Positions 3,729-53,057 of a DNA stretch of 64,000 nt are shown here, one piece after another. The DNA is from Diphasiastrum complanatum (Eukaryota > Streptophyta > Lycopodiopsida > Lycopodiales > Lycopodiaceae): the NCBI GenBank assembly GCA_029204225.1, contig CM055108.1, positions 26,527,303 to 26,591,302 of the forward strand, in the 5' to 3' direction. The notes beneath the pieces were generated by a model. The model was not told the origin of the DNA. It ran no database searches and saw nothing but the letters and a program-made list of their open reading frames with translations. Both the position numbers and the translations under genes were made by a program. How positions within the stretch are numbered: position 1 is the stretch's first letter; each line of letters starts with the position of its first letter.

Positions 3729-5050
3729 AATGGCATCAATGGGTGGATTTTCGCTTGAAGCTAGTGAAAGGCTCACATCCACTAATTATGCTGCTTAGGA
3801 ATCAAATTCTTCAAAGCATGAAATGAAGTAGTGAAAGTGCCCAAAATTATGTCTTTGGGATCAAATCTTTGAATAACGAGTTGTCTTCTATAGATGATAA
3901 AATCAAAGATGATGAGTTAGTTCAAATCATTTTGAATGGATTAGGAGATGATTATTCTAATCTTGTTCAAACCTTTGCTATTTAAGATTCACTTCCTAGT
4001 ATTGAAAAACTTCAAAGTGTGCTTGTAAGTGAGGAGAGTAGAATGCTTCACATCAAAAGTAGGATGAGTTCCTTATCTTTGAATGATGGTGATGAAAAAG
4101 CTAACTTTTCCTTGAAAGCCAAGAAGAAAAAGTTTCCATCCAAGAATACTCAAGACATGGAGATGGAGAGCAAGGATGGAGCATCAAGTTCCAAAGGAAA
4201 GAGCAAGAAGGACAAGAAGAAGCTGAAGTGTTTCTTTTGTAGTTAAAAGGGACATTTTGCATCCGAGTGCTACAAGATGAAGAATGCCCAAGAGAAGGAC
4301 AATCAAGGCAGGAAGAATGCAGTCTATCTTTGATGGTATCCTCACCACAAATATCTAATCAAGACACTTGGTGGATTGATAGTGGAGCAAGCTCCCACAT
4401 GACTCACCAAAAAGACTACTTTTCTAATCTACTTTCTTACAATAATTTTAAGAGATTTATGTTCACTACAAGTGATCAAGAATGTGAGATTGTAGGTGTT
4501 GGATCCATTCCTTTATGTCTAGGATCATAGTGTGAACATGGCAAGGGAAGAGCTAACTCAAGTGGAACTATGGCACAAAAGGTTAGGCCATCATAACTAC
4601 AAAGCTATGGAGACCATGGTGACAAAGGAGCTAGCAAGTGGACTTTCCAAAACCATATCCAAGTGTGACAAGCTTTGTGAAGCTTGTGGACTCTCCAAAT
4701 CTCATAAGCTACCTTTCAAGAGATCTTTGACAAGATCTAACTCTCCTCTTGACCTTATACACTCGGATGTTCATTCATTTTCACATGAATCTAATGGTGG
4801 AGCTATTATGTATGTCACTTTTATTGATGATAGATCAAGATACTCTTGGGTTTATCTCTTGTCTAAGAAAAGTGAAGTTTTTGAGTCCTTTGTAAGTTCA
4901 AAACTCTTGTGGAAAAGCAACTTAATACTAGCTTGAAGTATTAAGAAGTAATAATGGAGGGGAGTACATCTCCAATAGGATGAAAGAGTTTTGTAAAACT
5001 AATGGCATTAGGAGAGAGTTTATTTGCACATATACTCCATATGGCATATC
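3729..5050 (+). pseudogene. Decayed Ty1/copia gag-protease-integrase fragment
   Basis: The reading begins with an ATG and an N-terminal gag motif (LEASERLTSTNYA) and then jumps to RNQILQSMK. Compared with the related gag at 28.5 kb this is an internal deletion of roughly 80 codons. Further on are LVSEESRML, a zinc knuckle (CFFC, a stop, then KGHFASECYK), a frameshift, the aspartic protease motif WWIDSGASSHMT near 4370, a GAG-pre-integrase segment (LWHKRLGHHNYKAM) and the start of the integrase core (LDLIHSDVHSF, FIDDRSRYSW). At least four in-frame stops and two frame changes show it is dead. The similarity ends near 5050 and no RT follows. It is the same family as the gag-only element at 27-31.6 kb but still has integrase, so it may be a relic of that element's autonomous partner. 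Confidence 0.93.
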
Positions 5051-5390: not shown

Positions 5391-8144
5391 TTCAAATTTG
5401 AAAATGAGATTGTGTCCCTCGTTTTAACTAGCGAGAGAATAAACATAGAATCTCAGGTACGCCATGGATGAATAATAGTGTCTATTTTTTTTTTGGTCTG
5501 TCAGCTGATGTTTGCGGAGATGTCTCAGTTTCATCTACACATTGTTCTCCCTGCCGAGAATGCTCCGATAGCTAAAAGAGGAGTAGTGAAAGAATCCACA
5601 GTTTCTCCACTTGATATGATCGCTCACAGAATCAACCAAAGAAAGAATTACGATTTGTGGATTGACGGCAGTTTGTATGCATTGCATCTGAGCTCGATGC
5701 AAGCTCCACAATTCCAATCCATCACACAATTAATAAAGTTTTTGTGTGACGGAGAAAACGGTTTATTGGGTTATTGTAAAAGATTGACGACTTATGGTGT
5801 TGCAAACTAGGTTCAAAAAATTCCATGTTTAGAATGTATGTTAAATGGTTTGCTTGCTGACTATAGAGAAAAAGAGACCGCATTATTACAAACAAAAGAA
5901 GATAATGCACATTTACATAATATTATGTTAAATTTGAATGCAAGTGATGATCAATTCTGACAAGTTGTTCAGACATTACGTATATCAAATGACCATTTAA
6001 AAGAAGAAACTCGCATACTAGATAAGAAATTAAAAAGAAGCAAGCGAAAAAGAATTCTAAAGGACATTGATGAGCTTTCGCTAAATGGAGGCCAACGGAG
6101 AAAAAGGATTCAAGCATTCAAGTAAGGATTTGATTTGAATCAGTTTTATTTTAGTTTTGTGAAGTAGCATAACATTTATTATGTGTCCTATTTGGGTCTC
6201 TTGATTTTTATAATCATTTGCAGATCAGCATTGGTTGCAAATGAGCATCTGAAGGACAATGACCTGATCGGAAAATCATTGAGTTCGGTATTGACAACCA
6301 AGTCCACAAAGTCTTTATTGGACAATAATCGGTATTCTCGAATCAAGTCCAAGATCACTGAGGATTTGATGAACGAGGTCAGTAAGGTAATCGACCGAAC
6401 GTTAATTCAGGGAGCATGTGATTTCTCAGGTATTAGCAGGAAGGCATATGCCAGTATATTTAAAATTATTAAAGAGGCTTTTGGACAATTGCATGTAAGA
6501 AAATTTCTCATTCCTCGCCCTTTTCAGATAAGATTGGAGAGAGATGTATTGAATAAGGGTATGCAAAATGTCATTGGAATTCCTTTTCACATCAATGAGA
6601 TTTACAATTCAAAGTCTGGCAATTTGTCATATAATTCTACCAACAACTTATTTGTGGATTTGAATCATTTATTGAGATTTATAGTAAAATTCTATAATAT
6701 TACAAGTGTTAGTATGAGCAAACTTATTCTGGTGGTCAAGCTAGATGAATCGGAAGTTATAAAAGGACAAAAGTTGGAAAGAGTAAGTATTACTCTTATG
6801 AATGGAGCATTGAGCAATGCAACAAACTCAAGGGATCTCAACTTCAGTGTGCAATCAGAAAACAGCATACGGTGGCTAGCATATTTTCAGGTAAAAAATG
6901 GTTGTTATTCATGTGCAATTTCTTTTGGTAATTGTTTTGAATACATAAAAACTTGTGATTCCATATGTTGAACAGGTTATTAAGGAGGATCACGATGTTC
7001 TTTCCTGGATTTTTAGCAGAACAAGTTATCCCGATATCATAAAGGATCATATTAATGGCAAAGCACTTAGTGTTCTTGAAAGAGGTGAATTTTTGGTGGA
7101 ATGGCATTTAGCTGGAGATTTGAAGTCATTGAAATGTATGTTCAATGTATCTCATGGAGCAAATTTGAAACATCCATGTCTATATTGTATGAAATCATCA
7201 AATGACATTTCAAGGAACACAAGAGTTTCAAGAGATATTGAAGATCCCAACTGGAAACCAATACTACCAATCCCTTTACAAAATGTGCATATTTGCACAC
7301 TTCATGGAGGTGAGGATCATAGAGAAATTAATATATCTTCATATCTTGTTTGCATGGAATATCAAGCCAGAGTCAGCATCAAAACAAGCAATCGCTCGAT
7401 TAGAGGAAGTGTTGTCAAAAGCAGGCCTTCATAAAGGCCATGTTAAAATACAAAAAGATGAAAAGCTTTCGGGAAAAACAGGAAACGTACCCAATAAACC
7501 TAGCATAGGAGTCAAAGCTCGTCGATTTTTATCAAATCATTCTAAAGAGTCGTCTAAGATCCAATACTTGGTCTGGAAAGATGTTATTTCTGCAACAGAA
7601 GACTTTGAAGATAAAGGAACAAGGGTAAAGAAGGTTGAAGTTTGGAAAAAGCTCGATAATATGATTGAAGTGCTTAGAAAAGACACAATTTCATATGCAG
7701 ATGCACTTCTATTGGAGAAAACAACAATAGAGTTTGTAGATGCAGTTCGGGTGGCTTGGGGCTCATATCACATCACCCACTACATGGTAAGATACATTTG
7801 AACAGTGTCTTACAATTTTATAATTTTAGTATAACTTGCTTGATAGATTCTAACTAATGCATAAATCTTTGATATTGCAGCACATACTAAGGCATCATGC
7901 ATCATTTTTTGCAAAAAAGTATGGCAGTTTGAGTATATGGTCCTCACAAGGAATGGAGAAATCACATTTGCAGGCAAGAGCAGCATTTTATCGAAATACG
8001 CAACATGGTGGAACATCCTCAAAAAATAGTTACATCATTCAGCTATTCCAATGGTTTTATAGACGAGCTCAAGTTCAATACACAACAAGATCAACTGAAT
8101 ATCAAAGATTCAAAAAAGCATGTAAATTTATAAGCCAAAATTAG
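5390..8144 (+). pseudogene. Decayed multi-exon DDE transposase-like gene ([C/D]xxH type)
   Basis: I read at least four exons in one continuing frame. Introns are 6122-6223, 6891-6975 and 7787-7880 (85-102 bp, all GT...AG). A less certain first intron may end at 5503. The N-terminal part is Leu/Lys-rich and coiled-coil-like, ending in a basic segment (KKLKRSKRKR). The central part holds a candidate first catalytic Asp (VVKLDESEVIK, codon 6744), a second (WHLAGDLKSLKC, codon 7117), a CLYC pair (7177-7188) and a CTLH motif (7294-7305). The last exon has the candidate acidic residue in SQGMEKSH (codon 7956). This order (D, D, CxxC, CxxH, E) is that of RNase H-fold transposases of the [C/D]xxH group, which includes Transib/RAG1, hAT, Kolobok and others; I cannot name the superfamily. 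Stops at 5808 and near 5958, and a one-base frameshift near 7306-7313, disrupt it. A fast-evolving domesticated gene with sequence errors is the main alternative. Confidence 0.68.
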
Positions 8145-8225
8145 ATTGATGGCATTCAATAAAGATCAAATGCGTGTGATAAAAAATTCTCAAATTCCAA
8201 ATACATTAAATGAAAAAGAGTACAA

Positions 8226-9772
8226 TCATTTTTTTTCATTGTCTCTAAGGACAATTTTTGTTGTGTGGTCATGAAGGAACTTTTTCCTATCATACAGATC
8301 CAAAAATCGAGTGGATTGCCTTTTGCTCAAATCTATATATCTAGATAGAATTGCCAAAGCAGAGGATCTCATAGGAACATTTTCTGGCACATAATTAAAC
8401 ACTTTAAGAGCAACATCTCTTTTGAAAAAAATGATTCTATATGTACTTTTTGAGTATTTATGCCCTTGGGCAAAATAAGATAGGGCCTTGATGGCCATGA
8501 TTAAATTCCCGCATTCACAAAAAACCTTTCATGAAAAGCACAAATTTTGTTATTCAAAAAATGTTTCAAATAATGAGCCAATGAGGCATCCTTCTATCTC
8601 CCACCTTGTCTCTCTCTCAATCCTCCATGTCTGCTAGCAAAGGCATCAACTTCAATGATATCCTACAACACATAATCAAGTGTTAGTCAAACTAGCAGAT
8701 CAATCATCAGTTACACATTAAATAGTAAATGATTTTCGTGAGAAGGTGTACTTACCAAATCTTCCTCGTCAGCTTGGATCATACCAGCAGCTTCTAAATT
8801 GTGACCAGCAATAATGGTGGATTGTTGATCAGCTGGAATAGTATATATGGGAGGTGGCAGATACTTTTTCTGAAAAGCCAAAAACTCCTCCTCACTCAAC
8901 ATATTAGCCTCATATGCCCTGCTCTCAGATAGCATCCTTTAAAAGGCATCTGTGCCACTTGCCCGTTCAAACTGGTCCTCATAGTCGATGCCATCTATGA
9001 GGTCGTCATCATCAAAGTCAATAAAATCATTAAATTTAGAAATCATCCTTGACATAAGAGATAATATCTCATCTTCTCTGAGATCCATTACGTCTCCGAT
9101 GTCGCTAATGGATAAGAATGCAATATCGTCCATATGGTACACAGGGTGGTCCATCAGGGTTCTGCTCTGGTCAATCTCGCTCATGGTAGATAAGGGAGAG
9201 ATAGACAGATAACGAGCCTTGGCAGGATCATATTGATGTGCTTGCCCGGCCTCCTCTACATCTCCTAAAACCTCATCAGTAATGGAAACCTCTAAAGCCA
9301 CATGAGTGGTAGGGGCAGGCAAACCAATCATGGACGACCCAGAAGATTTTGCCTCATCAGGGATAAGAGCAGATAAGAAAAATACGAAGGCCATACCCTC
9401 CTGAACAAAGTGACACACTCGATTGTGTTCCTCACAAGGTATGACACGTTTAAACGGATCGATAAGTTTGGTAAACTTATGATCATGCCTTTTCTTGGCA
9501 CTAGGCTAAGCATGAGTCAAATCTATGAAATGCACAAATCTCAGGCCGTCCATCAGAAGGGTACCCTGTTGCAAGCACTCATAAAAATCCTTGTACAATT
9601 TAGAAAAAATTTCCCTGTGCTCAATAACAAATCTCTCTATGTCAAACTGAAAATCGAAATAGGACAAAAAATGGGCCTGTCTGTCGCTAACCTCAGCATC
9701 AACAAGGAAAGAACTAAGAGCTTTATAATAGATCGAACTAGTAGAAGAGGAGGCCATATCGATATGATGCAC
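8226..9772 (-). pseudogene. Decayed unknown gene convergent with the transposase-like gene
   Basis: Read from 9772 (or the in-frame ATG at 9757, MASSSTSS) downward, one frame stays coding-like to 8594 apart from two stops: TAG at 9506 and TAA at 8939. The text on both sides is continuous (FIDLTHA, stop, PSAKKRHDHKFTKLIDPF; then GTDAF, stop, RMLSESRAYEAN). A good intron removes about 8657-8751 (donor TTG|GTAAGT, acceptor TTGTAG|GAT). The frame then ends at TAG 8594, but coding-like text continues (LAHYLKHFLNNKICAFHERF) and, after a frame change near 8510, runs through ALSYFAQGHKYSKSTYR to KIVLRDNEKK at 8226. The middle is acidic (DDDDLIDGIDYEDQFE). I recognise no family. It faces the transposase-like gene tail to tail and the H3-like gene head to head, with about 0.8 kb between starts. 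Its decay matches that of the transposase, suggesting one old unit. Confidence 0.55.
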
Positions 9773-10346
9773 CGGTTAGCAAGGGGACATAAACGGTGTA
9801 ATCGTGGGCGCATGATGGTAATATGCATTGTACACGAATCCGAATATCGGAACCACGCGCCAGGGGATCAGTGCAACTATAGAACTCTCTGCTGGGCGTG
9901 TGGTAGCGATATTGTACACACAGATTTGGAGCAGGTCAGTTTCCTGGACTCAATATGCAAAACTAAATTCCAGAAATGACACTTATATATATAGTCTAAT
10001 ATAGAGCATCTGAACCGTACACGTGTCTCAGTAATGTGCGGTCAAAATTGCCACACATGTGAAAACGATGGCGAAATCATTTTGAATGACACGCGTACAC
10101 TTCGGATCCTGAAACGTGTCCTCGCACGTGCATGCCAACTGTACGATCGTACGACCCAGTTGTCTTGTGATGCGTGTGTGGTCCAGATGTCACCACGTGT
10201 CCTTGCACATGCGTGCCAGTCGTATGATTGTACGAACCACTGATGTCCTGACACGTGACAGCTCCATGTGATGACACGTGTGACCACACGTGTGGGGAGT
10301 GGAGGTGTCACATCACACGTGTGAATATGATGGGACGTTCTACAGA
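9773..10346. promoter_or_regulatory. Divergent intergenic region with tandem G-box-rich repeats
   Basis: ACGTG cores (CACGTG, ACGTGT) occur about ten times between 10018 and 10325. Within this, a unit of about 83 bp that starts CGTGTCCTCGCACGTGC and includes GTACGATCGTACGA is repeated once in diverged form (about 10113-10195 and 10196-10270). ACGT cores are bound by plant bZIP and bHLH factors. The region lies between the starts of the minus-strand unknown gene and the H3-like gene, so it could serve both. Binding is inferred, not shown. Confidence 0.5.
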
Positions 10347-10355
10347 TATAAAAGG
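10347..10355 (+). promoter_or_regulatory. TATA box (TATAAAAGG) of the H3-like gene
   Basis: A consensus TATA box lies just after the ACGTG cluster and about 250 bases before the ATG at 10605. That would give a 5' leader of roughly 220 bases. Confidence 0.55.
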
Positions 10356-10477
10356 ACGTTTTCGGCTCATATTTCAGTTTTGAATTTTTTCTTTCTCTGG
10401 CTTTCTTCGTTCACTTCCGCTCCTCGTTAGACGCATATCGCTACCACACGCCCAAGGACCCACATACCAGTATAGCT

Positions 10478-10497
10478 GGGGGGGCCCCCCCCCCCCC
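10478..10497. repeat. G7-C13 homopolymer pair in the H3-like leader
   Basis: Seven G followed by about thirteen C within the inferred 5' leader. It could form a very stable hairpin; its exact length may be affected by sequencing error. Confidence 0.8.
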
Positions 10498-10604
10498 GCG
10501 TGTCGTGGCGATACGCCATCTCTCATATTGCCATCACGCGCCTCCCCTGTTGGATATCTGCTTTTCCTTCTCGTTGGCACGTCATATCGATACCCTAGCT
10601 TGAA

Positions 10605-10979
10605 ATGGCCCGTACCAAACAAACAGCACGCCTTACCACATTTGCCCTGCCTCCTCGCCCTCCTGTACAAAGGGCAGTGGGCACTAGTAGGAGAGTATGT
10701 TGGCCCAGAAGACCATGGTTAAGAGATATCAGGAGACTTCAGAGGACAACAAATCTTCTGATTCTTCGTGCTCCTTTCTACAGGTTTGTGAGATTAGTAA
10801 CAAGGTCACTCTCACATGATGTTTTCTGGAACATAACAACCCTGGAAGCCCTCCATACTGCCTATGAGGACTTTCGAGTCAAATTCTTTGAGGACTCCAC
10901 GCTTTGCACAGTGCACGCTAAGAGAGTTACCCTCATGGCTCAGGACATGCATCTTGTCATGAGGCTGAGGAGTACATAA
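10605..10979 (+). CDS. Divergent histone H3-like protein, 124 aa
   Basis: The first nine residues are exactly the canonical H3 tail start (MARTKQTAR). After that Lys9 is replaced by Leu, and the rest of the tail is short and Pro/Arg-rich with none of the usual Lys14, 18, 23 or 27 sites. From residue 36 the histone fold aligns without gaps: RPWLRDIRRLQRTTNLLI (alpha-N), PFYRFVRLVTRSL (alpha-1), an alpha-2 helix with EALHTAYEDF, FFEDSTLC, HAKRVTLM and DMHLVMRLR (alpha-3). Canonical H3 is 135 residues plus Met, so this is shorter, the loss being in the tail. A Trp replaces Phe in loop 1, and TNLLI and RVTLM are also seen in plant CENH3, but the extra loop-1 residue usual in CENH3 is absent. The frame has no stop and no intron. 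The start is set by the tail match. The TAA replaces the usual C-terminal GERA. It sits among transposon-like genes, unlike replicative H3 genes. It could be a functional variant, a mobile-element histone or a recent pseudogene. Confidence 0.85.
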   Translation: MARTKQTARLTTFALPPRPPVQRAVGTSRRVCWPRRPWLRDIRRLQRTTNLLILRAPFYRFVRLVTRSLSHDVFWNITTLEALHTAYEDFRVKFFEDSTLCTVHAKRVTLMAQDMHLVMRLRST

Positions 10980-11703
10980 GATCAGGTCTTTAAGAGTGGC
11001 TTCACCTCTAGGCCACCACCTACAAAGAGAGGTCTTGTTCCTCAACGAAGAATGAGGAAGCAGACCAAGCCCACCAGGCCTGCAAAGCAAAGGGTGGTAC
11101 TTGGCGAATCACCATCCCCCCCATCACATCTCTCGTCCTTTGGTTGGACCATCACACCAGTCTGCAGTGCCTTCTTCTCGTCCCACCACCCCTAACTATT
11201 CAAGTAGTTCCTCTCCCATTCCCTCCATTCCATCCCACAATAACGAGGATATGAACTCGACTATAGATAAAATAATATCGGATCTAGATTTAAGTTTAAT
11301 AGGTGATTTTTATAAGGATCTTTGTGTAAGATCTCATGTTGATCCCAAAGATTCATTTTTGGATTCTGAGAGGTATATAATTTCTGATGAGTATGTTGCC
11401 AAAGAAATTGATAAGCTAGGAGGTCAATTTTCTTTTTGTCTAAGTTCACTTGATTATGTAAATCACATAAATAAAGACTTTTGTGATGCCCTGAAGGAGA
11501 AGACCTCAGATATATCAGATCCAGTTGTGGAGGCTGGTTTGATGTATTTTGTAAATAGATGTAAATCCGATTATAGTAAGGACATTGGAGTTGTGTTGTC
11601 CTTTTTTGCACACAGCCTTCATAGTCCAACTAAGGCGACAAGATATCTTCTCCTTACAACCTCAGAGACCAAAGTCTTTATTATTCCATACTGCTATTAC
11701 TAG
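10980..11703 (+). CDS. Downstream unknown ORF, possibly once fused to the H3-like protein
   Basis: Directly after the H3-like TAA the same frame stays open to a stop at 11193, giving a very basic stretch (PPPTKRGLVPQRRMRKQTK). In the next frame an ORF without its own early ATG runs from the stop at 11053 to 11703. It begins with a Pro/Ser-rich segment (SRPTTPNYSSSSSPIPSIPS) and continues with about 150 residues that look alpha-helical and acidic (STIDKIISDLDLSLIGDFY; VEAGLMYFVNRCKSDYS). The first in-frame ATG is at 11251. Either one nonsense change plus one frameshift split an H3-basic linker-helical protein, or this is a separate exon of a spliced gene. An acceptor-like TTTGTTTGCAG lies just after it, near 11775. 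I recognise no family. Confidence 0.4.
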
Positions 11704-12640
11704 AATATATTCTAGTAATATTTTTAATAGGTATTGTAATTCCTTTAGTTTAACTACTTATCTTTTGTTTGCAGTAAGCATTGGAGTATGCATATAATCT
11801 CCCTTAGGGAAGATTCAGATGGGATCATTAATCTCATCTGTTTAAAGATGAACTCCTAGAAATTATAGAAGTAGATAAGATTGCTTCATCGCATCACACA
11901 GCTGAGCTGATATAACTAACCGAGGAAGAGGGCTGTTCAAAACATTTACAGACGTAGTGATTTGAAACATCGCACAGAGGAAAAGAGGTCGTGATTCTTC
12001 CTTAAGGCAGCTATAGTAGTCAGCTTAAGCTAATCCTTAACATGGTTAAGGTTTGGATTATCTTCTAAAAGGCCTTGCGTGGTGAAAATGCAGATGTGGC
12101 CCATGTCTCAACAGAGTATTTAAAAGAACATGTAAAGCAAGTCGATTATGTCAACAGAAGTCTGACAGTGTGAAAAGATGTGAAAAGAAGCCTGACACAG
12201 AAGCAAGCTATTTTTTAAAGAAAAGTGACATCAAACTTTTTGTATATTCAATTCCAAACATGAGTCATTGTTCCGAGATGTAATGCCATTTGAGCTGACA
12301 GTTCACTGCAACTGTCTTATCCTGTCGTAGATCAACATGCAGGGCTTCAACTGAGCTACATCCACATGAACGAACTTAAACTCCAAGAAAACATTCCTCA
12401 GCCTGGCAAAGTGAAAGAAGCGCTAGTTATTCTTATAACATATGATTGATCATATATTGATGCCTATTGGTGTTAGTAACAACGTAGCAGGCCAGGTGGA
12501 CCTGATCAGCGTGCTTGAGAAGGCTGGCAAGTTCAATACTCTTGTGAGGTAACCGTAAACAAAAGGATTCAAGCTTCTTAAGTTACAAACCTTACCTTGT
12601 AGCATGGATATGGATATGGATATTGCAGTTGGTGGATACA
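11704..12640. other. Unassigned stretch after the H3-like block
   Basis: I see no gene or domain, and stops occur in all frames. If the 5.4-11.7 kb block is a mobile element, its right end should be in this interval or just beyond. Confidence 0.4.
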
Positions 12641-15446: not shown

Positions 15447-16400
15447 CTATGGTTCGCCACTAAATCCGCAGAACTCTTCTGATTTGAAAGTTGAGCTGTC
15501 TAGCACATATCTTGCTGGTGCTCTTTGTGGACTTGTCAACCTTATGGAAGATCCTCCTGGGACAGCTTTGCCTTTGCTTTTGTCTACTCTGCTCGGTCCA
15601 GAACCATCTTGGTTTACAGAAACTGCGGCGGCAGGTTGCCTCTCGAATCTTTCTTTGTCAAATTCGTCGCTCAAATGGGAGACAATTCGAAAATCTTTAT
15701 TTTTGTGTTCGTCCTCTGATCCCTCTGTCATTGGCGGTAGGTCATAGTACTGTCTCTCCATAACTTCGTAGTTGACAGGATTGTCATTGGCTTTTGTCCT
15801 GCTCTCATCGAATCTGACATCTCTCACTGTTTTCACAATGTTCGTGTCTGGCATGTAGACTCTGTAGTATGACGAATTGTTGTCATAACCTACCAAAAAT
15901 CCCTGCTCGGCTTTCTCATCAAGCTTCTTTCGAAGCTTATCAGGAATATGTGCATAAGCTGCATAGCCAAAGATTCTGACGTGAGACAGATTGGGCTTTC
16001 TACCCCACCATAGCTTATGTGATGTCGTGTGAGGGCCACCAGACTTGCCTGTTCTGTTCTGGATGTATGCGGCTGTAGCTACTGCTTCAGCCCACAGAGC
16101 CCTTGGAGCCTTCGAGTAGGCCATCATGCATCTGGCTGCTTCCATCAAGGTCATGTTCTTTCGTTTAGCAACAGCATTGTGCTATGGTGTGTAGGCTGCA
16201 GTTCTTCTGTGAATGATGTCACGATCATTGCAGAAGTCAGTGAAGCGATTTGAGATGTATTCACCACCTCGATCTGTTCTGATCTGCTTCACTTTACTGC
16301 CTGTACATCTCTCATTCCAATTCACATATTCTATGAATTTATCAAGTGCTTCAGATTTATTATGAATAAAATACACTCTGGAAAATTTGCTATGAAGGTT
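15447..16400 (-). pseudogene. copia integrase core and C-terminal region
   Basis: The core reads VNWNERCTGSKVKQIRTDRGGEYISNRF (16182-16376), with the second catalytic Asp in RTDRGGEY. After a stop comes MTLMEAARCMMAYSKAPRALWAEAVATAAYIQNR (from 16154), SHVRIFGYAAYAHIPDKLRKKLDEKAEQGFLVGYD and a variable linker to the RT. These are the usual copia integrase and GKGY-type tail blocks. The stop at about 16180 separates the two parts. Confidence 0.92.
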
Positions 16401-25925: not shown

Positions 25926-26839
25926 AAGTGGCTTAAGGAGGAGGCTTCTCCACACATGGTTTTAAGGAGATCTTCAAGAGGCAAGGACGAGTCTTTGGGG
26001 CTCACAATAAATGGAAAATAGGGGCAATTTTCAGGTTGTATCTACTTCAACACATTTACATTTGCTTCTCTTCCATTATTTGATGTACCATCTTGCTTTA
26101 TTGAGATTTCTACATCTCAAAGTTCAAGTAAGGCAATACTAGTTTTGTATGATGCCTATTGTATGGACATATTTCTAGTCATTGATGGCTTAGATATGTT
26201 TCTAAAACATTTTGAAAGCAAGAGGTTGTGTCATCAAATGTATGCCCTTGGATTTAGAAAGAGCAAGAATGAGTTTGTTACTCGTAGTTTGAAAAATCAT
26301 GTTTTTACATGTTATGAGACATTTTGTAAATTTCTCTTGAGATTAAGTGAATCATCCTTGAAGGAGAGTTACATACTTGAGCAAGTATTTTGCCTCAAGA
26401 AGATCAAGATAATGTTTGATTTCAAGATTAGATTCATCATGGAAAAAGTTCATAGTATGTGGACTAGTCAAGCTAGAATTGAAAATCTTGATAATCATCA
26501 CATTTGCTCATCTTATGATCTTGATATTTATAATCTTTATGAGGCATGGAAGCCTCGGATTTCTCACTTTATGATGCAGCCATCTTCATCGAAGTGGAGT
26601 TTACAAGTCAAATATTATCATCAAGCATGGAGAAAAATCAAAGATATGGTGGCAAATTGCTCTTCAAGGAAGGTTGCAAATGATTTCTACCAAAAAAATC
26701 TTATCATGGTTATGGTGAAGGTGCTCCTATGGAGGATCCCTCAGCTGGTTTTCATATCATGCATACCAAAGGATCCACTCAACAAGTTTCATAAGCTCCT
26801 TGGTTGATCTACTACCTTATCAAGCTAGTTTTTGAGGAG
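25926..26839 (+). mobile_element. Body of a gag-less retroelement copy
   Basis: This segment matches 53026-53935 in the opposite orientation with very few differences. The inverted copy also has a gag upstream (54.3-54.9 kb), which is missing here. The stretch ends in a purine tract (TTTGAGGAG) followed by an LTR start at 26840. Confidence 0.8.
26145..26807 (+). CDS. Unknown 220-aa protein of a non-autonomous retroelement
   Basis: A full-length frame without stops, nearly identical to the one at 53058-53720 on the other strand (I count three residue differences). That preservation between two copies suggests either a very recent duplication or selection on the protein. It is Lys/Phe/Ser-rich with no transmembrane segment, zinc knuckle or DDE motif, and I recognise no family. 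It sits in the place where pol would be, just before the 3' LTR. The other gag-only element (27-31.6 kb) has a different unknown ORF in the same place. Confidence 0.55.
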   Translation: MYDAYCMDIFLVIDGLDMFLKHFESKRLCHQMYALGFRKSKNEFVTRSLKNHVFTCYETFCKFLLRLSESSLKESYILEQVFCLKKIKIMFDFKIRFIMEKVHSMWTSQARIENLDNHHICSSYDLDIYNLYEAWKPRISHFMMQPSSSKWSLQVKYYHQAWRKIKDMVANCSSRKVANDFYQKNLIMVMVKVLLWRIPQLVFISCIPKDPLNKFHKLLG

Positions 26840-27036
26840 TGTGAAAAATTAGCAAAATCTAGCTTGGCTATTTTGTATTTCCTTGTTTATGGGTAAATCT
26901 CACACACGTATGTAGAAGTGCTATTTATAATTATACAAAACATATCAGCAGGAAACTCTATAGAGCTCCATAAGTAGCATGACGTGGTTTAGGTTAAGAA
27001 ATCACGTCTCCAAAACCTAAATCATATCGGCCTTTG
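26840..27036 (+). repeat. 3' LTR of the gag-less element, interrupted
   Basis: The LTR starts TGTGAAAAATTAGC after a purine tract. It is broken at 27036 by the 4.5-kb element and resumes at 31581 (TGTAGGATTCAGAG), staying similar to the inverted copy until about 31627. The inverted copy at 52.8-53.0 kb reads straight through the junction. Confidence 0.9.
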
Positions 27037-27737
27037 TGTGAAGAATTGCCAAAAATTGGCAAATCTAGCTTGATCAAAAACCATGTAGAATAGTGTAAAT
27101 TGTGTACACAAGTGGGTCCCACACATGTGAGGCCATGATTCCACGTGGGAAACCCATCCTAATGTAGGTTAGATCAATTCAAGAGAGTTGGTCATGTCTA
27201 TTTGGTGGTCATCCCTACTTTATAGGACCTACACCTAAGTTTAAGGTGAAAATTTGACCAACTAGCTACCTACCAAGCATAACTCTAGGAAATAGACTAG
27301 GGTTTCATTTTAGGTCAAGGAGAGTGAGTTAACTTCCTTATTACATGCTAGAAATCCACCTAACTTCAAGAAGGAAGTCGAATTTGGTATGTATTCTCTC
27401 TCTCCATAGTGAGAAGATAGAAAATTTTTGGAGCTCATTGGCAATCTCAAGCTAGTTCACTATGTACATTGAGTTTTTGTGATCCAAATGAAACCAAATC
27501 AATTTCTACTTGTTTCTCAGGTTGAAGGCCGTACTACAGCCTGTAGTACACACGTGTGGGCTCTTATTTCAATGTTTATCAATGCTTTTGATTGTTAATG
27601 CTTGTTGTTTGTCAAATTGCCAATCTAGATCAACTTTTTTGTGTCTAGTTTTTTGATAGATTGTTAAGCAAGCATCCAATCACTCTTGTGGATCTTTTGT
27701 AGATCCATTTATGGTCCTAAAGTACAATACTTTCACA
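27037..27737 (+). repeat. 5' LTR of the gag-only element
   Basis: It matches 30896-31575 almost throughout. It is 21 bp longer because of a segment (GTCTAGTTTTTTGATAGATT region, about 27641-27663) absent from the 3' copy. Its ends are TG...CA. Confidence 0.96.
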
Positions 27738-32806: not shown

Positions 32807-33019
32807 GTTCTAGTGATGAAATTACAAAAATATTCGATTAACTCGAGCAATGCCTCTGGGTATGGCTCCAACATGAGCTCTACTCGAGTAATCTAAGAAA
32901 ATTTCCACAACTATCCCAAAGGATTTGAAAAAGAATTTGTTGTAACTAGAGCACTGCTCGGGTTATCTAGTTCATTCTTGCAATAAGCTTCAGATTGTGA
33001 TAAGATGTAAATAGGATTC

Positions 33020-33355
33020 TAGCGCTCGTGACGAAGCTTTCAATTGGTTAAGTCCGATGTAAGTCAGACCGCTTGCTTGGAATGGATGTTACTCGTTTGT
33101 AACGAAGCTTTGAGTTGGTCAAGTTTGATGTATGTCGGGCGGCTTGCTTGGAGGGAAGTCACCCACATCGGGACCCCCGATCTGGCATGGCGCCAGGTTG
33201 GATCTCAATGTTGGTTTTCGGAACTTCAAGTTGGTTAAGTCTGATTGTTGTTGGCGAGTTGGCTGCTTGTATGTCAAGTGGGTTTGGATGGCAAGAGTTG
33301 AAGGCTGGGAAGCTAAGTCGTGGTTCCCGGCTCCCTTTGGGATGCCTGCGCTACA
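33020..33355 (+). repeat. Truncated gypsy-type LTR (second family)
   Basis: It matches the last 336 bases of the LTR at 40401-41286 (AGCGCTCGTGACGAAGC ... GCCTGCGCTACA). The first part is missing. A PBS (TGGTATCAGAGCC, from 33358) follows, so it was a 5' LTR reading rightward. Confidence 0.9.
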
Positions 33356-33370
33356 TGTGGTATCAGAGCC

Positions 33371-35147
33371 GACTGGCCGATCAGCTATGCGGATCTCACG
33401 GAAATGGCCATGGTTTAGGGTTCATCAAGACAATTGTTGTCTATACATTTAAGCTACTTGGCATAGTACTCAGTTTACTGGCCACTTTTTATTAACATTG
33501 AAGCTGGCACACCACAAGTCGGAGGCTCAGCTCTTTGTACTGAAAAATTACATAACTTGAAAATATATCTTTGTCTGGGAAAAGCGTAGATTTGATATCG
33601 CTTTCGTAAAACCCGAGAACCTTATTAACTGGTGGCAGAGACCTTTCTTTGAGATGTTCGCCCCTGTCGCTTCTGACTTTCGACTTTGGAACTCCTTTGA
33701 GCTCCTGATTTGTCCTTGATGCACTTTGTGTTGAGCTCTTTGAGCTCCAGATTTGTTCAGTTCCGCACATGTATCAAGGCTCCCTGAGCTGAAGGATTTA
33801 TCGTTTGATTGCCCACTTTATGGTCCACTTCGTGCCTTGTTGCTTCTCCCCCTTGATTTCTCTCCTTGTCCCAGCCTGATCTTGATACTTTTCCATCTTG
33901 GCTCTTTAAGGTAGGCAAAGATTGAGTACTCCGCAATGCACCTCTCACTTAGCTTGAAGTAGCTCTTTGAATCAGCCCAAATGTAACCATTGACCTCGTG
34001 TAAAGCCAAAAAGTCGCACCAGTTTGATCCGCATCCGAACTATCTCTTCGCGTTTGTTTGAAACACCATGTCCATCGCGCAAAACTTGACTTTCACAATT
34101 CCATCACTGGTCAGTTGCCTCACAGTCAAAACAAGAAGTATACATCGAGCTTGGCTTCAAGTAGCTCTCTTTGAATCAGAAACATGCACCCAGAGTTTGC
34201 ACTAATCCGATCTCAACGCGAACTGTCCCTTAGCATCCGTTCAAAATACCAAGTCTCTCATGCAAGACTTAACTTTCACAGTTCCTTCATTGATCAGTTG
34301 CCTTACACGTAACACAAGCCAGCATACTCATATGTTTCCTCATCATTGCTGGTCCAGAGAAAGCCTATAACAAACTTTCCTTTCCACAACAAAAACTTGT
34401 CAACTTACTAGGTCCAAAGTTCGTCAGTCTCCTCGTGTGAGTATGGCTAGGTCACCTTGAATTTGCCCCCATTTTGATCAACTTTCATTCAAAATTTGCC
34501 CCAAGAGAGAGGTGTGTGTGATAGTTCCCCTCCACTTATAAAATCAGCTGATCGGACTTAGAGTAGAGTTCTTCGGACAAAAAGCTTTTCCAACACTTTG
34601 CTTCCCATCTGCTAGGATTATGGCTCGATCCAACTTGTTGCCAATCTCTGAAGTGGATCCTAGTCTTTTCCCCTTTGAGGAAAAACCCAACTGATACTGG
34701 ATATCTCCCATGCTCAGTGAGTTTCAGTTCCGAAGGTGGCCGTCCCAAAATGAAGACCAACTGCTATAGAAGATCTCCCCTGAAATTGCCCTTTCCAACT
34801 TTTGACTTCCTGCTTGCATCTGGTGGGCGTTGTCGCAAATGAAACTAACCCAAGAAACAGGCTAGCCATCCATCCTTTGCAAACATTGAGTCGTTTCGTT
34901 GTCGTTCACGTGTGAGTACTTGAACTGCAAATCCGCCCCACAGATTCTGTAGTCCTCTTTGTTTGATGGTATCAGCCTTCAAAAGAAAAGGTTCCTTCTC
35001 GAGCCATCAGCTCCTTGTATCACAAGCAATCATGCAAACCAGACAAAGCACGAGTACTAAGACTCACCACGAATACATACAAGTAAGAAACTCAGGCAGG
35101 TTTACTAACAAGTAACAAAGACAAGGTCCCTCTTTGAGATGGTCCTG
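33371..35147. other. Gypsy internal remnant without coding frames
   Basis: The part from about 34364 to 35115 is similar in the same orientation to 41287-42060. It contains no gag, protease or pol block that I can recognise, only frames under 100 codons. It appears to be untranslated internal sequence of the second LTR family. Confidence 0.6.
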
Positions 35148-36067
35148 TGTTGCGCCGGCACCTCAAAGGACGCTGGGACTTGAGCGGTTTCCCCAATACG
35201 CGCTTAAGTCTAACATTCATCCATCATGCACTTACGTAAAAGCCAACTCAGAAACGTAACAAGCTTAACCATTCAGACTTAAGAAAACTGGATTCCCAAC
35301 CAACTCGAAAGCCAACTCAGAATCCGTCCCCAAAAGGTAACCAAAGGCAAAGACAAGCCACACATGAAACCCGAGGTATAATGGTCGCCAAACTGACCAA
35401 CTGGCATAGCGGCAAGCCCCATGTCGATGACAGGGACCCTTAGGCGCCAGCGACGCAAAAAGGTTGTAGTAAGGGTCCTTCCACTTGGACCAGTCCCGGA
35501 GGCGAAACCGAAATGGTAATCATCCCCAAGGATCAACTTTATTAGATTTGGAAGAGGTTACATTCATACGTAGACTGACCGGTCTCGGGGCCACCAACAC
35601 GTGCTGGGCATTGTGCCTGGCTTGTGCTGGTAGAGGGAGCTGAGACCTGGCGACTGGATTCCTGGCGCTGGTTGAGCTGCCCAAGTTTCTGTCTGCCGGA
35701 CTCCCCCTATAGTTCTGCTGTGATTCGGTGCACCCCCTCTGGTTTGAAACATAGTGCTTTCTGGTAAAGCACGCTTTTTAGGACTTAGTTTTTATTTTGC
35801 TGATTAAGCCTGGCAAGCTTGGCAGAATCAGTCTGGCTCCCGGACATGGGTCCCGGGAGCCGTCTTGGCGGCCGAATCAACCTGCTTTCCTGACTAGGCC
35901 ATGACTCGAGCTCCAGAGCTAGCTCATGACTTTGTGACTACTTGACTAGCTCACCACAGGTCGGAGGCTCAGTCCTTGACGTTCTAACTTGCTCTGGGAC
36001 CTTAGAGAATGTCACCTCTTTGAGTCTTACAGGGCACGCTGGGTGCACCCGAGTCAGCTTTACAACA
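35148..36067 (-). repeat. 3' LTR of the gypsy-type element
   Basis: Same length as 39480-40399 and nearly the same sequence. It starts TGTTGCGCCGGC on the plus strand and ends CTTTACAACA. Confidence 0.96.
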
Positions 36068-36434
36068 TCCTACCCTCATTTGAGAAAGCTGATGTCCTCA
36101 TCAGGGCCAAACTAGAACCTAAGACTCATGGCACGGGCTTAATTCACCTGCCAGACTTTAGTCACATATACAAGGGCACGGGCTTGATTCACCGGCCAAA
36201 GGAAACCAACTGTAAAGCGGAGTAATGATATTGTGTTTTACACCCAGCACAGGAAAAGTGTGGATCTAGTTCACTTACGTAAAACCTGTGTGAAGCTGCT
36301 GCACTTAGACATTAAACTGAAGCTCACTCCTCAATGAGAAATGCGGCTTACTTTATTAACATGAAAGAAAAAGGTACTTAAGACTCCCTTATGCCTCAGA
36401 TATGTCGTTTTCGTCGCACATCTGGATGATTCCC
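36068..36434 (-). other. 3' untranslated part with purine tract
   Basis: The bases next to the 3' LTR read AAATGAGGGTAGGA on the minus strand, a plausible polypurine tract. The words GGCACGGGCTTGATTCACC and its variant repeat once (36131 and 36175 areas). There is no gene. Confidence 0.6.
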
Positions 36435-38648
36435 CTAGGACTCTAGATATTTCGTTTGGTCGTCCAGGTTGAGCTCCTTGAGCTCTGCATCGGCACTTAG
36501 ATTCACCTTTGATGTAGAAACTGCAGGCAATGTTGGCTCCATTTGACCTCGCATCAGCTGGTTTGTCACTGTTGGATGTCCTTCGTTAAAGAAGTGAGCT
36601 TTCGCTTGGTCACACAAGGTGAGCTCCTTGAGCTCTACATCGGCACTTGAATTCACCTTTGATGTAGAGACTATAGGCAATGTTGGCTCCATTTGTTCCC
36701 GTGTCAGCTGGTCTGTCATTGTTGGCTGTCCTTCATTAAATAGGTGAATGAAATTGGGAGGAATGGTTGGATCAGGTTCATTTGTGTCGTTCTTTTCTAG
36801 TTGGTCCCCTGGCACAGCTCTGACGACACAAGGTCTCCTGCCATTATATAATAACACAAGGTTAATCCCTTTTGCCAAGAAGGCCACCACATGTTCGTTA
36901 AACCAGCTTAATCCCAAAATAGCGTCGAAGGCATCCATCTTCAAGATTGTGAACATTAGTCGATTCTTCCAGGCTCCCAGAGAGATTGGTAAGTTGGTTG
37001 CCAATCTACAAGTGGTCATTGTACCTTTCGCGGTCTCCACACAAATAGGAGTCACATTTTCTTCACATTGGATGTCCAATTCTCCTGTCAATTTTTCTGA
37101 CAAGTAGTTATGTGACGCCCCCAGGTCTACCATGAAGTAAATAATCCTACCTTGAATACAGCCTTTCAGGTACAATAACTTGGATCCTCTCGCAGGAGTC
37201 GCCATAAGATGTTCACGATACGCCGCAAGTGCCCCTATCTGTTGCAAGGCATTCAGGTCAGACTCCGTCAAATCCGTTTCTGGGTCCTCTTCATCATCTT
37301 GTTCACCATCTTCTTGATCAAATGCCTCTCTCTCCATCCTATCAAATCCTTCAATGGCAGCCATGATTTGCTTATTCAATGGTTTGGGGCATGACCTCCA
37401 AGAGTGACCTTGCTGATGACAGTTGAAGCAACGCATGGAACTGCCCACTGTTGGTGAGCTATTGCTGTGACTAACTGAAGGTCCAACATTGTTTCTTCTC
37501 TGGAACATGTTCCCTCCATTGTTGCCTTGGTTGCCAAACCCTGTTTTTGTTGGGAATTTGTTCACGCTACTCGAGGCTTGGTTGCCATTTGGAGCTGAGT
37601 CCCCCCTTGAAAAGAAGCTTGGACTCGGTCTGGATCCACTAAATACTCTTGTTGAGGTTGCGGGAGCAGCTGGTGCCAATGTGCTCTCATAATCACAAAC
37701 CATTTCAGCCGCTCGAATAGTTGAATTGAAATCATGGGGCATGTAGCTGTCTATCGCACGCCGGGTCCAAGATTGCATTCCAGACAATAGGTAATGAGTT
37801 TTGTCCGCCTCGGACATATCTTCAATAACCCATACACTCTGTCTGATTTTATTGAGGTACTCTCGCAATGACCCTTTCTGTTTGAGCCCCGATAATTTTG
37901 TCCTCAATCTCATGTGTGAATCCTTCGGTATGAACTCCTCTCATAACGCGGCTTTGAATGCGTCCCATGTTTGAAAATGCATTCCTGCCATCCGGTACCA
38001 ATTTGTAGTGTAGCCCTGAAAATATGCTTATGCCAAGTCAGTTCTTTCTTCCTTAGGAGTGTTCATCAGACGGAAGTAATGGTCCATGTGAAACAACCAA
38101 TCTTCCACAACTCGAATGTCACGCTCTCCTTTGAAAGTAGGTGGTGCTTTCACTTTGGCAGTCTTTCTTGGGCCCTCCGCGTTTCGCGCTCGTGGTTCTC
38201 TTGGTATCTGTGGAGGAGGCGCCACTGCATTCCCCCTAGTTGCTTCCAACTCTTCAAACCTGGCTTCGAGCTGTGTTAGCCCGTCTCTCATTTCTCTAGC
38301 AAGGTTAATTTGAGTAAGATTCATGGCTCGCAAGGATGTTTGCCATTCTTTCCTTTCGGTTTCTCTATCCTTCTTCACCTCGCTAAGCATAGTCGTCATT
38401 GCGCTTGATAAGTATTGCCGCATCTTCACTTCAAAGAGGTCTTGTTGCGCCTCTGGCAAGGGTTCATCTCTTGGTGTAGGTTCAGAAGGGCCACCCATCT
38501 CTTCTTGGAGGGGCGCCACTGTGGAGTGCATACGCTCTTTCTTTCTCGACTTGGACCTGGTGCCATCTCGATGCATGCGAGAGCTGTATTCTCGAGTCAG
38601 CTCTTCTTCGTTCGTCAATGCTCGTAACTCTTCAAGATGGTCCTCCAT
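36435..38648 (-). pseudogene. Ty3/gypsy gag-protease polyprotein with two in-frame stops
   Basis: One frame from MEDHLEELRALTNEEELT at 38648 down to 36435, broken by TAA at 38025 and TGA near 37941. Order: basic/acidic N-terminus with coiled-coil-like helix (MREGLTQLEARFEELEA type), gag core (APPTFKGERDIRVVEDWLF, WDAFKAAL, FIPKDSHMRLR, LKQKGSLREYLNKIRQ), zinc knuckle CFNCHQQGHSWRSC, then an aspartic protease (FMVDLGASHNYLSEKL, DAILGLSWF). The active site reads Asp-Leu-Gly instead of Asp-Ser/Thr-Gly, so the protease is probably inactive. The C-terminal 100 residues are a 50-residue unit repeated twice (150-bp period). RT and integrase are absent. Confidence 0.9.
36471..36750 (-). repeat. In-frame 150-bp tandem repeat in the gag-protease tail
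   Basis: Text starting GAGCTCCTTGAGCTCT at 36471 recurs at 36621 with a period of 150 bases. Each unit encodes a 50-residue segment with QMEPTLP, VSTSKVN and ELKEL words. The exact codon period keeps the frame. Confidence 0.9.
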
Positions 38649-39464
38649 TATAGTCAGAGGTGTACTTCCAACAGATTATCGCCTCAATCTTTTTTATATT
38701 TGAAGCTCTCCCTTCTGTCGGCCGGGCCCCACAGCTCTCTTTTCTTCTTTATTAAATCAGCTTCAATGAAAATATCCCTTCCTCAAACTTAGCACGCCCA
38801 CATCACCTGAGAGCCAAGTAGGAACTAGGTCATTTGTGTCCAAGCAGGCACACAACAAACGGAACATACCAACCAAAGCAAACACAGAGGATCCCTCTCA
38901 AGCCACAAACCCCCCTGAGACCGGACGTAGGACCTTTGCCTAGTCGTGCCCACACAAATCTATCACAGAATTAGCCCACGAGGAAACATCCATCCAACCA
39001 TCTGTGCTTTCACCATTAAGCAGCACACTGCCTCAGTCACGCCCCACCACTTTTTGGTCGATAGCCCTTATAGCTAAACGATCGGCAACTATCCCGCACC
39101 GGCAGCTAACCACCCGTGCTTTACACCCGAATTCGAGCAGCATCTCTGTATCAATGGTTAACCCGTACAGTTCGAATATGTCGCCACGCACCCCACAAGG
39201 TACAGACCGTGCTTTCACCTACCTAGGCAGCACTTTGCCTCATCCGTCCTGTGTGCAGACAGCGCCAAGCCCGAACCGCGAGAACTGACCGTGCTTACAC
39301 CTCGAGGGCAGCACTTTGACTCATCAAGTCCCTCGTTCTGCCGACCACCCCGACCGTGGACGCACCCGTGCTTACACTGTGGGCAGCACCTTGCGCAACG
39401 GTTGTCCTGACAAATCCCAAAACGTGGCCATCCCTGTGAGGTTTGCGTAGCTGACCAGCTAGTC
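38649..39464 (-). other. Leader region of the gypsy-type element
   Basis: No coding frame. From about 38915 to 39464 it is similar to 42061-42610, which lies beside an LTR of a different family. Near 39200-39400 the words GTGCTT(A/T)CAC and GGCAGCAC(C/T)TTG recur every 60-90 bases. Confidence 0.7.
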
Positions 39465-39477
39465 GGCTCTGATACCA
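39465..39477 (-). other. Primer-binding site for initiator tRNA-Met
   Basis: TGGTATCAGAGCC on the minus strand, two bases inside the 5' LTR that starts at 39480. Confidence 0.9.
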
Positions 39478-39479
39478 CA

Positions 39480-40399
39480 TGTTGCGCCGGCGCCTCAAAG
39501 GGCGCTGGGACTTGAGCGGTTTCCCCAACACGCGCTTAAGTCTAACATTCATCCATCATGCACTTACGTAAAAGCCAACTCAGAAACGTAACAAGCTTAA
39601 CCATTCAGACTTAAGAAAACTGGAATCCCAACCAACCCGAAAGCCAACTCAGAATCCGTCCCCAAAGGGTAACCAAAGGCAAAGACAAGCCACACATGAA
39701 ACCCAAGGCATAGTGGTTGCCAAACTGACCAACTGGCATAGCGGCAAGCCCCATGTCGATGATAGGGACCCTTAGGCGCCAGCGACGCAAAAAGGTTGTA
39801 GTAAGGGTCCTTCCACTTGGACCAATCCCGGAGGCGAAACCGAAATGGTAATCATCCCCAAGGATCAACTTTATTAGATTTGGAAGAGGTTACATTCATA
39901 CGTAGACTGACCGGTCTCGGGGCCACCAACACGTGCTGGGCATTGTGCCTGGCTCGTGCTGGTCGAGGGGGCTGAGACCTGGCGACTGGATTCCTGGCGC
40001 TGGTTGAGCTGCCCAAGTTTCTATCTGCCGGACTCCCCCTATAGTTCTGCTGTGATTCGGCGCACCCCCTCTGGTTTGAAACATAGTGCTTTCTGGTAAA
40101 GCACGCTTTTTAGAAATTAGTTTTTATTTTGCTGATTAAGCTTGGCAAGCCTGGCAGAATCAGTCTGGCTCCCGGACATGGGTCCCGGGAGCCGTCCCGG
40201 CGGCCGAATCACCCTACTTTCCTGACTAGGCCATGACTCGAGCTCCAGAGCTAGCTCATGACTTTGTGACTACTTGACTAGCTCACCACAGGTCGGAGGC
40301 TCAGTCCTTGACGTTCTAACTTGCTCTGGGACCTTAGAGAGTGTCACCCCTTTGAGTCTTACAGGGCACGCTAAGTGCACCTGAGTCAGCTTTACAACA
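39480..40399 (-). repeat. 5' LTR of the gypsy-type element
   Basis: The 920-bp partner of 35148-36067, with TGTTG...CAACA ends. On the minus strand it lies directly upstream of the PBS. Confidence 0.96.
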
Positions 40400-40400
40400 G

Positions 40401-41286
40401 TGCCGAATCACACCAATACTATAGGGGAGTGCGGGTTGCAACTCATGGTGAGCTCCAACCAAGTCTCAGCCTCCCTTGCTGGAATGTTGTCATGGCTCTC
40501 GCCTTGGCATGCTAGCACCCCGGTGACTAGGGTCGGTCACACACTTGAAATGTAACCTTCTCAGATTTATCAATAAAGTGGGATTTTTCTCAAACTGACT
40601 CTGATTACCTTCTGGGTTTCAGTGTTTGGTAAAAGCGCCAGTTGTAAGGTCACTTTCAAAATTTTTAACTTGGCACATAGCTGAGGGTCGTATCCCGGGA
40701 CGCCAGCGGTATGCCGTCGGGACCATTCGGTTCGTGGCGCCAGCGGTATGCTGTCGGGACCATTTGGTTCAGGAACTGGTTGTTTCCATATTTGTCGCGG
40801 CTTGTGGTTCTGAGTGTTCCTTGCATGAACGTGAATGGGTTAAGCTCTTGGGGAACGGGCTCTAACTTGTCGGCTGAGTTGGATGGCTTGCTTGGGTGGA
40901 TGTTATCTGTTTATGGCTGTCCAGTCTGGCGTTGGCACCAAGTTGGCTTCCAGCGCTCGTGACGAAGCTTTCAGTTGGTTAAGTCTGATGTAAGTTAGAC
41001 CGCTTGCTTGGAATGGATGTTACTCGTTTGTAACGAAGCTTCGAGTTGGTTAAGTTTGATCTATGTCGGGCGGCTTGCTTGGAGGGAAGTCACCCACGTC
41101 GGGACCCCCGATCTGGCATGGCGCTAGGTTGGATCTCAATGTTGGTTTTCGGAACTTCAAGTTGGTTAAGTCTGATCGTTGTTGGCGAGTTGGATGCTTG
41201 TATGTCAAGTGGGTTTGGATGGCAAGAGTTGAAGGCTGGGAAGCTAAGTCGTGGTTCCCGGTTCCCTTTGGGATGCCTGCGCTACA
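40401..41286 (+). repeat. Second-family LTR, plus orientation
   Basis: It begins TGCCGAATCACACCAATACT and ends GCCTGCGCTACA. It is the inverted partner of 42626-43510 at almost equal length, and its last 336 bases also occur at 33020-33355. It starts one base after the end of the neighbouring 920-bp LTR. Confidence 0.9.
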
Positions 41287-42625: not shown

Positions 42626-43510
42626 TGTAACGCAGGCCTCCCAAAGGGAGCCGGGAACCACGACTTAGCTTCCCAGCCTTCAACTCTTGTCGTCCAAACC
42701 CACTTGACATACAAGCAGCCAACTCGCCAACAACGATCAGACTTAACCAACTGGAAGTTCAGAAACCAACATTGAGATCCAACCTGGCGCCATGCCAGAT
42801 TGGGGGTCCCGATGTGGGTGACTTCCCTCCAAGCAAGCCGCCCGACATACATCAAACTTAACCAACTCGAAGCTTCGTTACAAACGAGTAACATCCATTC
42901 CAAGCAAGTGGTCAGACTTACATCAGACTTAACCAACTAGAAGCTTCATCACGAGTGCTAGAATCCAACCTGGCGCCACGCCAGACTGGACAGCCATAAA
43001 CAGCTAACTTCCACCCAAGCAAGCCATCCAACTCAGCCGACAGGTTAGAGCCTGTTCCCCAAGAGCTTAACCCATTCACGTTCATGCAAGGAACACTCAG
43101 AACCACAAGCCGCGACAGATATGGAGACAACCAGTTCCTGGACCAAATGGTCCCGACAGCATACTGTAGGCGTCACGGACCGAATGGTCCCGACGGCATA
43201 CCGTTAGTGTCCCGGGATACGACCCTTAGCTATGTGCAAAATTAAAAAGTTTGAAGCGGCCTTACAACTGGCGCTTTTACCGAACATTGAAACCCAGAAG
43301 GTAATCAGAGTCAGTTTGAGAAAAATCCCACTTTATTGATAAATCTGAGAAGGTTACATTTCAAGTGTGTGACCGACCCAGGTCTCCGGGGCGCTGGCAT
43401 GCCATGGCGAGTGCCACGACAACATTCCAGCAAGGGAGGCTGAGACTTGGTTGGAGCTCGCCCTGAGTCGCAACCCGCACTCCCCTATAGTATTGGTGGG
43501 ATTTGCCACC
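42626..43510 (-). repeat. Second-family LTR, minus orientation
   Basis: On the minus strand it starts TGGCAAATCCCACCAATACT and ends GCCTGCGTTACA next to a PBS. It is the inverted partner of 40401-41286. Confidence 0.9.
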
Positions 43511-53025: not shown

Positions 53026-53057
53026 CTTCTCAAGAACTAGCTTGATAAGGTAGTAGA

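Follow-up and report, generated by a model that had tools for sequence, protein, structure and literature searches.

A histone H3-like gene with lysine 4 as its only tail lysine, in what may be a degenerate divergent two-gene unit of the clubmoss Diphasiastrum complanatum

Introduction

In DNA of the clubmoss Diphasiastrum complanatum rich in transposable elements (TEs), a short open reading frame begins exactly as histone H3 begins, with the residues MARTKQTAR, and lacks every other lysine of the H3 tail. Is this a host histone variant, a drifting copy of ordinary H3, or a piece of something larger? The evidence discussed here comes from the 64-kb stretch in which the frame lies, the whole of which we call the window, and from proteins that resemble its product. 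The features on which the argument turns are collected in Table 1.

Results

A divergent H3-like frame that keeps Lys4

The 124-amino acid product of the frame at 10605-10979 is recognized as a histone by Pfam (PF00125, Histone; E 1.6e-22, 80.5 bits against a cut-off of 26.4), and solved H3 chains match its residues 2-123 in a structure-chain search, the best with E 2.4e-21. It is this homology that leads us to take the frame as real, since length alone sets it only slightly apart: an open frame as long occurs in 3 of 1000 dinucleotide shuffles, and the H3-like region stays stop-free in one frame in 8 of 1000 of its own dinucleotide shuffles. The first-pass annotation of this DNA had called an unbroken frame of this kind amid transposon-like genes unusual; the open frame and the TE-rich surroundings stand. 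Within the histone module, we find neither a break nor an intron.

Direct reading of the sequence bears out most of the peculiarities that the annotation had listed. The canonical tail start is exact, and of the lysines whose modification characterizes the H3 tail, Lys4 is present, position 9 (in mature numbering) is Leu as claimed, and the others, K14 and K27 among them, are absent. The loss of the acetylated tail lysines that had been reported goes further than the tail itself, with Lys4 the sole lysine ahead of residue 93, so that every other site for lysine acetylation or methylation in the tail is gone. The tryptophan assigned to loop 1 (W84) and the strings TNLLI and RVTLM are all found, and loop 1 has the ordinary H3 length, without the insertion of CENH3, again as described. 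The gapless alignment to H3 that had been claimed holds for the fold, where the spacing from H3 R49 to the C-terminal end is identical in the two proteins, but not for alphaN just before it, which is three residues shorter (RPGTVAL in H3, RPWL here). C110, H113, K115, R116, T118, and D123 are retained, and R83 is missing from the window copy but retained in its closest relative; all of these are residues that we take to have roles in the nucleosome.

Table 1. Features of the H3-like gene, its divergent partner, and the adjoining frames, in window coordinates.
Feature	Position	Strand	Remarks
Neighboring frames, apparently a multi-exon gene	5508-8145	+	transposase-like by eye (WSSQGMEKSH...NTQHGG); no Pfam family above cut-off
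Divergent gene, inferred last exon	8594-8662	-	
Divergent gene, intron	8663-8755	-	GTAAGT...TTGTAG; splice sites inferred from sequence
Divergent gene, first exon, 334 codons, acidic stretch	8756-9757	-	in-frame stops TAG 9506-9508 and TAA 8939-8941
TATA-like box and divergent gene leader	9758-9993	-	
Inverted copy of ATATCGCTACCACACGCCCA	9893-9912	-	exact
Core between the two TATA-like boxes, 340 bases	10001-10340	.	seven CACGTG boxes
TATA-like box (TATAAAAGG) and H3-like gene leader	10347-10604	+	resembles divergent gene leader
Leader motif ATATCGCTACCACACGCCCA, 20 bases	10435-10454	+	exact inverted copy at 9893-9912
H3-like open frame, 124 amino acids and TAA	10605-10979	+	begins MARTKQTAR; K9L; histone fold starts near residue 40
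TAA, probably a derived nonsense codon	10977-10979	+	P0001 reads on: TYDSIFKFGFT vs T(stop)DQVFKSGFT
H3-like frame continuation past stop	10980-11118	+	basic, proline-rich; end approximate
Second open frame, 215 codons, other phase	11056-11700	+	first ATG 11251; inferred C-terminal part of ancestral protein

A single close relative and signs of constraint

A protein search with the window protein returned 41 matches among 66 candidates, headed by P0001 (O6H91_14G014700), a 137-amino acid protein of D. complanatum with 57% identity over the whole query at 133 bits, the runner-up scoring 78 bits. When the window protein and P0001 were used together, there were 317 matches among 414 candidates, the best after P0001 at 105 bits; the best 120 of the 317 are listed in order of bit score, so a second close relative among the lower-scoring matches is not possible. 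The window itself holds one copy of the H3-like sequence and no second.

P0001 likewise has Lys4 as the lone lysine of its tail, and its loop 1 is four residues longer than that of the window protein. The first 11 residues of the two proteins are identical while most of the remaining tail differs, and this identical start beside a poorly conserved tail fits selection acting on ARTKQTAR itself. The two proteins also share 32 departures from H3.3 (a reference sequence) at aligned positions. Among the other rows of the alignment (158 rows, made up of 157 proteins and the reference H3.3, with P0045 excluded), 34 columns of the fold reach 85% conservation or more, and at these the window protein keeps the conserved residue in 26 and P0001 in 25. 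Shared departures together with kept fold columns fit a lineage long maintained by selection. Two metagenome proteins, P0005 and P0129, also have K9L, with the tail start MARTKQTARLSTGG, and alphaN is shortened in P0005 as well, so neither mark is unique to the pair. The window copy and P0001 would be the members known so far of an old, fast-evolving, probably H3-derived lineage.

Placement between H3 and CENH3

The window protein is 41.1% identical to plant H3.1 and 41.9% to plant H3.3 (both reference sequences), and 45.1% identical to P0009, a plant protein taken as CENH3, 47.6% to P0079, which is named CENH3 in its source, and 44.4% to lamprey CENP-A. P0001 shows the opposite trend, at 46.8% to both H3 sequences and 41.7%, 46.1%, and 39.4% to P0009, P0079, and lamprey CENP-A, respectively. 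A tree of 49 rows (46 of 159 proteins, the window protein, and the two reference H3 sequences) unites the window protein and P0001 with full support (100/100), their common stem measuring 1.28 changes per column, and places the pair outside ten plant rows labelled CENH3 (clade support 100/99), of which P0012, P0079, and P0104 are named centromeric by their sources and the other seven are labelled by likeness. In the same tree, the neighbors of the pair are two thrips proteins, on long branches and modestly supported (88/78). The recent processed copy of ordinary H3, which the annotation had set out as the case against its own proposal, is not what we find, given the 41-42% identity.

The placement outside CENH3 carries less weight than these supports suggest. 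In a tree of 26 rows that included 23 of the 159 proteins, forcing the pair to join the plant CENH3 rows gave a score 3.89 log units above that of the free tree (p-AU 0.616), and forcing it to join animal CENP-A gave one 1.73 above (p 0.555), while joining it with both CENH3 and CENP-A cost 4.25 log units (p 0.373) and with plant H3 9.19 (p 0.218). Because the CENH3-constrained tree scores higher, the placement outside plant CENH3 in the free trees loses most of its force. The pair is distinct in both trees, and at the level of sequence, an origin from H3 and one from CENH3 are each compatible with its position.

These scores give substance to an explanation in which the gene is a fast-changing host H3 variant of clubmosses, possibly derived from CENH3 and keeping a K4-type tail, with the window copy a decaying duplicate. 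Neither the CENH3 nor the CENP-A constraint is rejected, the tryptophan after loop 1 and the rapid change are reminiscent of CENH3, and the region upstream of the frame resembles a proper promoter and leader. In the free trees, the pair falls outside plant CENH3, which would speak against such an origin, but the constrained-tree score has removed most of that objection. The shortened alphaN is harder to accommodate, with RPGTVAL kept in three plant rows taken as CENH3 (with one substitution in one of them), as is the lack of introns in the histone module, since plant CENH3 genes carry several. The breaks described below affect both genes of the pair, which also fits poorly with a host variant. 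Weighing these points, we consider this explanation doubtful, although it deserves to be taken seriously.

A stop codon within homologous coding sequence

After the TAA that closes the H3-like frame, the window continues in the same phase with DQVFKSGFT, and P0001, which has a Tyr aligned with the stop, continues to the end of its annotation, 10 residues past the window's stop, with DSIFKFGFT. Six of the nine residues match, a level reached by 1 of the 79,454 stop-free nine-residue frames of the window, presumably this same site. Since homology to P0001 runs on beyond the TAA, the C-terminus in RST that had been reported for the protein is probably not its natural end.

The second frame, which follows in another phase, is longer than any found in 1000 dinucleotide shuffles (maximum 148). 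Taken over the full span of 10605-11703, no single frame has fewer than 10 stops, a number that 18 of 1000 shuffles equal or undercut, which is what a phase change would give. A TAA inside coding sequence homologous to P0001, followed by an open frame out of phase with it, makes it likely that a longer protein was once encoded here and has since been broken, and the join between the histone module and the second frame may reflect slippage at a C-rich stretch. The new H3 variant that the annotation had proposed therefore survives as a divergent lineage with a 57% relative but not as a complete, unbroken short gene, in view of the TAA, the second frame, and the stops in the partner gene.

Searches with the second frame gave little to characterize it. 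No annotated protein fusing the histone module to it was found among candidates whose lengths lay between about 0.55 and 1.75 times that of the read-through query; the 4 proteins matched cover 20-30% of the query each, by the histone domain only. The frame has no Pfam domain and no notable match in the PDB, and its single-sequence structure model, at a mean pLDDT of 37.2, is too poor for use. A Ulp1/C48 protease reading, made by eye from IPYCYY...KHWSMHIISL, was rejected, having neither Pfam nor PDB support and a phmmer score against SENP2 of 6.4 bits, which the best of 200 shuffles exceeded (7.6). KHWSMHIISL, at 11776-11856, resembles by eye the His motif of Ulp1-like proteases, a likeness that these comparisons did not bear out.

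It could instead be supposed that an intact protein of 124 amino acids truly ends at RST and that the downstream frame is a separate gene. The histone module is indeed unbroken, and the annotated P0001 is short too (137 amino acids), but neither the matches to P0001 right after the stop (6 of 9 residues) nor a downstream frame that is open from 11056, well ahead of its first ATG at 11251, is expected of two such genes, and we judge this improbable.

A divergent partner gene with a matching leader

A second gene points away from the H3-like gene on the opposite strand. Over 8717-9769, its best frame is interrupted by 2 stops, where shuffles average 17.4 and none of 1000 has so few. No Pfam domain was recognized in its pieces, and its single-sequence structure model (mean pLDDT 32.1) was too poor for use. 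Downstream of it, a 90-amino acid frame at 8226-8498 (minus strand) without a Pfam family may be a further exon.

The leaders of the two genes, taken from TATA-like box to ATG, align in inverted orientation with a score of 127.5, which none of 300 dinucleotide shuffles attains (maximum 89). The direct-orientation control scored 62, just above the maximum of 58 in its own 300 shuffles, probably because each leader contains the motif in forward as well as inverted copies. Five sites in the window lie within 4 mismatches of the first 18 bases of ATATCGCTACCACACGCCCA, every one of them in the two leaders, and in the predicted RNA folds of both leaders, the motif pairs with its inverted copy, the stability of these folds being only modestly unusual (matched by 12 of 200 shuffles in one case and by 3 of 200 in the other). 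No similarity was detected between the halves of the core beyond the TATA-like boxes (score 58.5, with 103 of 300 shuffles as high) or between the first 250 coding bases of the two genes (score 48.5, with 243 of 300 as high). The CACGTG boxes of the core, of which the whole window has 22, compare with a shuffle mean of 0.96 and a maximum of 5 in 1000. We read the H3-like gene and the divergent gene as a degenerate copy of a putative divergent two-gene unit.

A processed or captured copy of ordinary H3 that drifted without function, to which the intronless histone module, the TE-rich surroundings, and the description in a fungus of a transposon that took up an H3 transcript or retrocopy (PMC6710886) might point, is very unlikely here, as the leader resembles that of the partner gene and the 32 common departures from H3.3, the 57% relative, and the unchanged 11-residue start indicate a lineage kept for long.

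Surroundings of the unit

Pieces of LTR elements flank the unit on either side: the sequence at 3792-4526 resembles, at 68%, a gag region of copia type that lies in another part of the window, and a retroviral SH3-like domain lies at 15450-16181. The transposase-like neighboring frames may belong to the unit that includes the H3-like gene. No terminal repeats (LTRs or TIRs) of a common element were found around the unit, in a search that short or degenerate ones would escape; the leader repeat alone stands out in it, and matches of 13-14 bases are at chance level. A link of the unit to a mobile element is plausible. Known RNA families gave three matches within 8500-12000, all far below their gathering scores. 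A viral origin was considered and rejected, with no relative in scans of viral contigs and none confirmed of the pattern matches to the second frame (3), to part of the divergent gene (8), or to the two-sequence histone alignment (67).

Elsewhere in the window, an inverted repeat pair of 1.1 kb with 98.8% identity (25930-27039 and 52826-53935) carries a near-identical 214-amino acid frame in each copy, the first without a Pfam family. Repeats of roughly 0.1-0.9 kb, lying in either orientation and sharing 77-97% identity, cluster at 33014-43509, and a 658-amino acid open frame with leucine-rich repeats lies at 56738-58714 (minus strand).

Discussion

The explanation that we favor, at close to an even chance, takes the frame for the histone module at the N-terminus of a longer and old H3-derived protein, encoded in a divergent two-gene unit of which this copy is now degenerate. 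With a nonsense codon, a phase change, and two stops in the partner, the copy probably makes at most a truncated protein, and any function would have to be sought in intact members. In these, the protein would pair with H4 and enter nucleosomes through the retained H3-H3' interface, its K4 tail would be open to binding by readers of active chromatin, and, having no other tail lysine, it could not carry silencing marks at K9 or K27. It is the retention of K4 with the loss of every other tail lysine that suggests an anti-silencing role to us: such a protein would promote expression of its own coding DNA, and this would fit best with a selfish unit. Both the fusion of the histone module with the second frame and the mobile origin are steps that we infer.

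A bolder version of this explanation would have a plant mobile element with an H3 of its own, reduced to the K4 reader site, joined to another domain, and expressed together with a partner by way of the shared leader. The protein might be deposited on or near the element, or its Leu9 tail might serve as a decoy for H3K9 methyltransferases, in either case keeping the element active. In this full form, we regard the scenario as a long shot. If intact members exist, they would amount to a natural experiment on the H3 residues that a genome parasite, or else a host variant, cannot do without, in which the K4 end of the tail has been preserved to the letter and all other tail lysines are gone; the window copy as found is broken.

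Comparison with known systems

Our literature search returned no paper combining a histone variant, a transposon-encoded protein, and the histone fold, and none combining a histone mimic, a transposon, and anti-silencing, results from which absence from print does not follow; among the matches listed for H3K9L, all concern lactylation. The closest printed precedent that we found, going by the available text of PMC3538342, is the H3L of Pyrenophora tritici-repentis, where hAT-type elements with TIRs and a hAT transposase gene, present in 26 copies, carry H3L proteins that match neither H3 nor CenH3, have tail insertions, and are represented by ESTs. The window resembles this system, as far as that text describes it, in having an H3-like protein whose gene lies in DNA that is mobile or rich in repeats, close to another ORF without a known function, but differs in its shortened tail and in the indications of a longer protein and a shared leader. 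The fungal H3L also lies inside a TIR element with its transposase (PMC3538342), whereas around our unit no terminal repeats were found and the neighboring frames are transposase-like by eye only.

In Pseudocercospora fijiensis, a hAT transposon has captured the organism's own H3 gene and is present in hundreds of copies, according to the available text of PMC6710886. An intronless H3 coding sequence and degenerate copies are common to that case and ours, but the window sequence appears to belong to an old divergent lineage. Plant CENH3 shares with the window protein the H3 fold, fast change, and a tryptophan after loop 1, and the two differ in the shortened alphaN, the ARTKQTAR tail start, and the intronless histone module of the latter. 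The VANC anti-silencing proteins of VANDAL elements are sequence-specific, and their abstracts (PMC5735166, PMC10398659) make no mention of a histone; the likeness to VANC would lie in the proposed role only, that of an element-encoded protein countering silencing, and is thus a functional analogy. Should intact members of the unit exist, plants would join the fungi in having H3-like genes of the transposon type, here with another protein architecture and a leader shared by two divergent genes.
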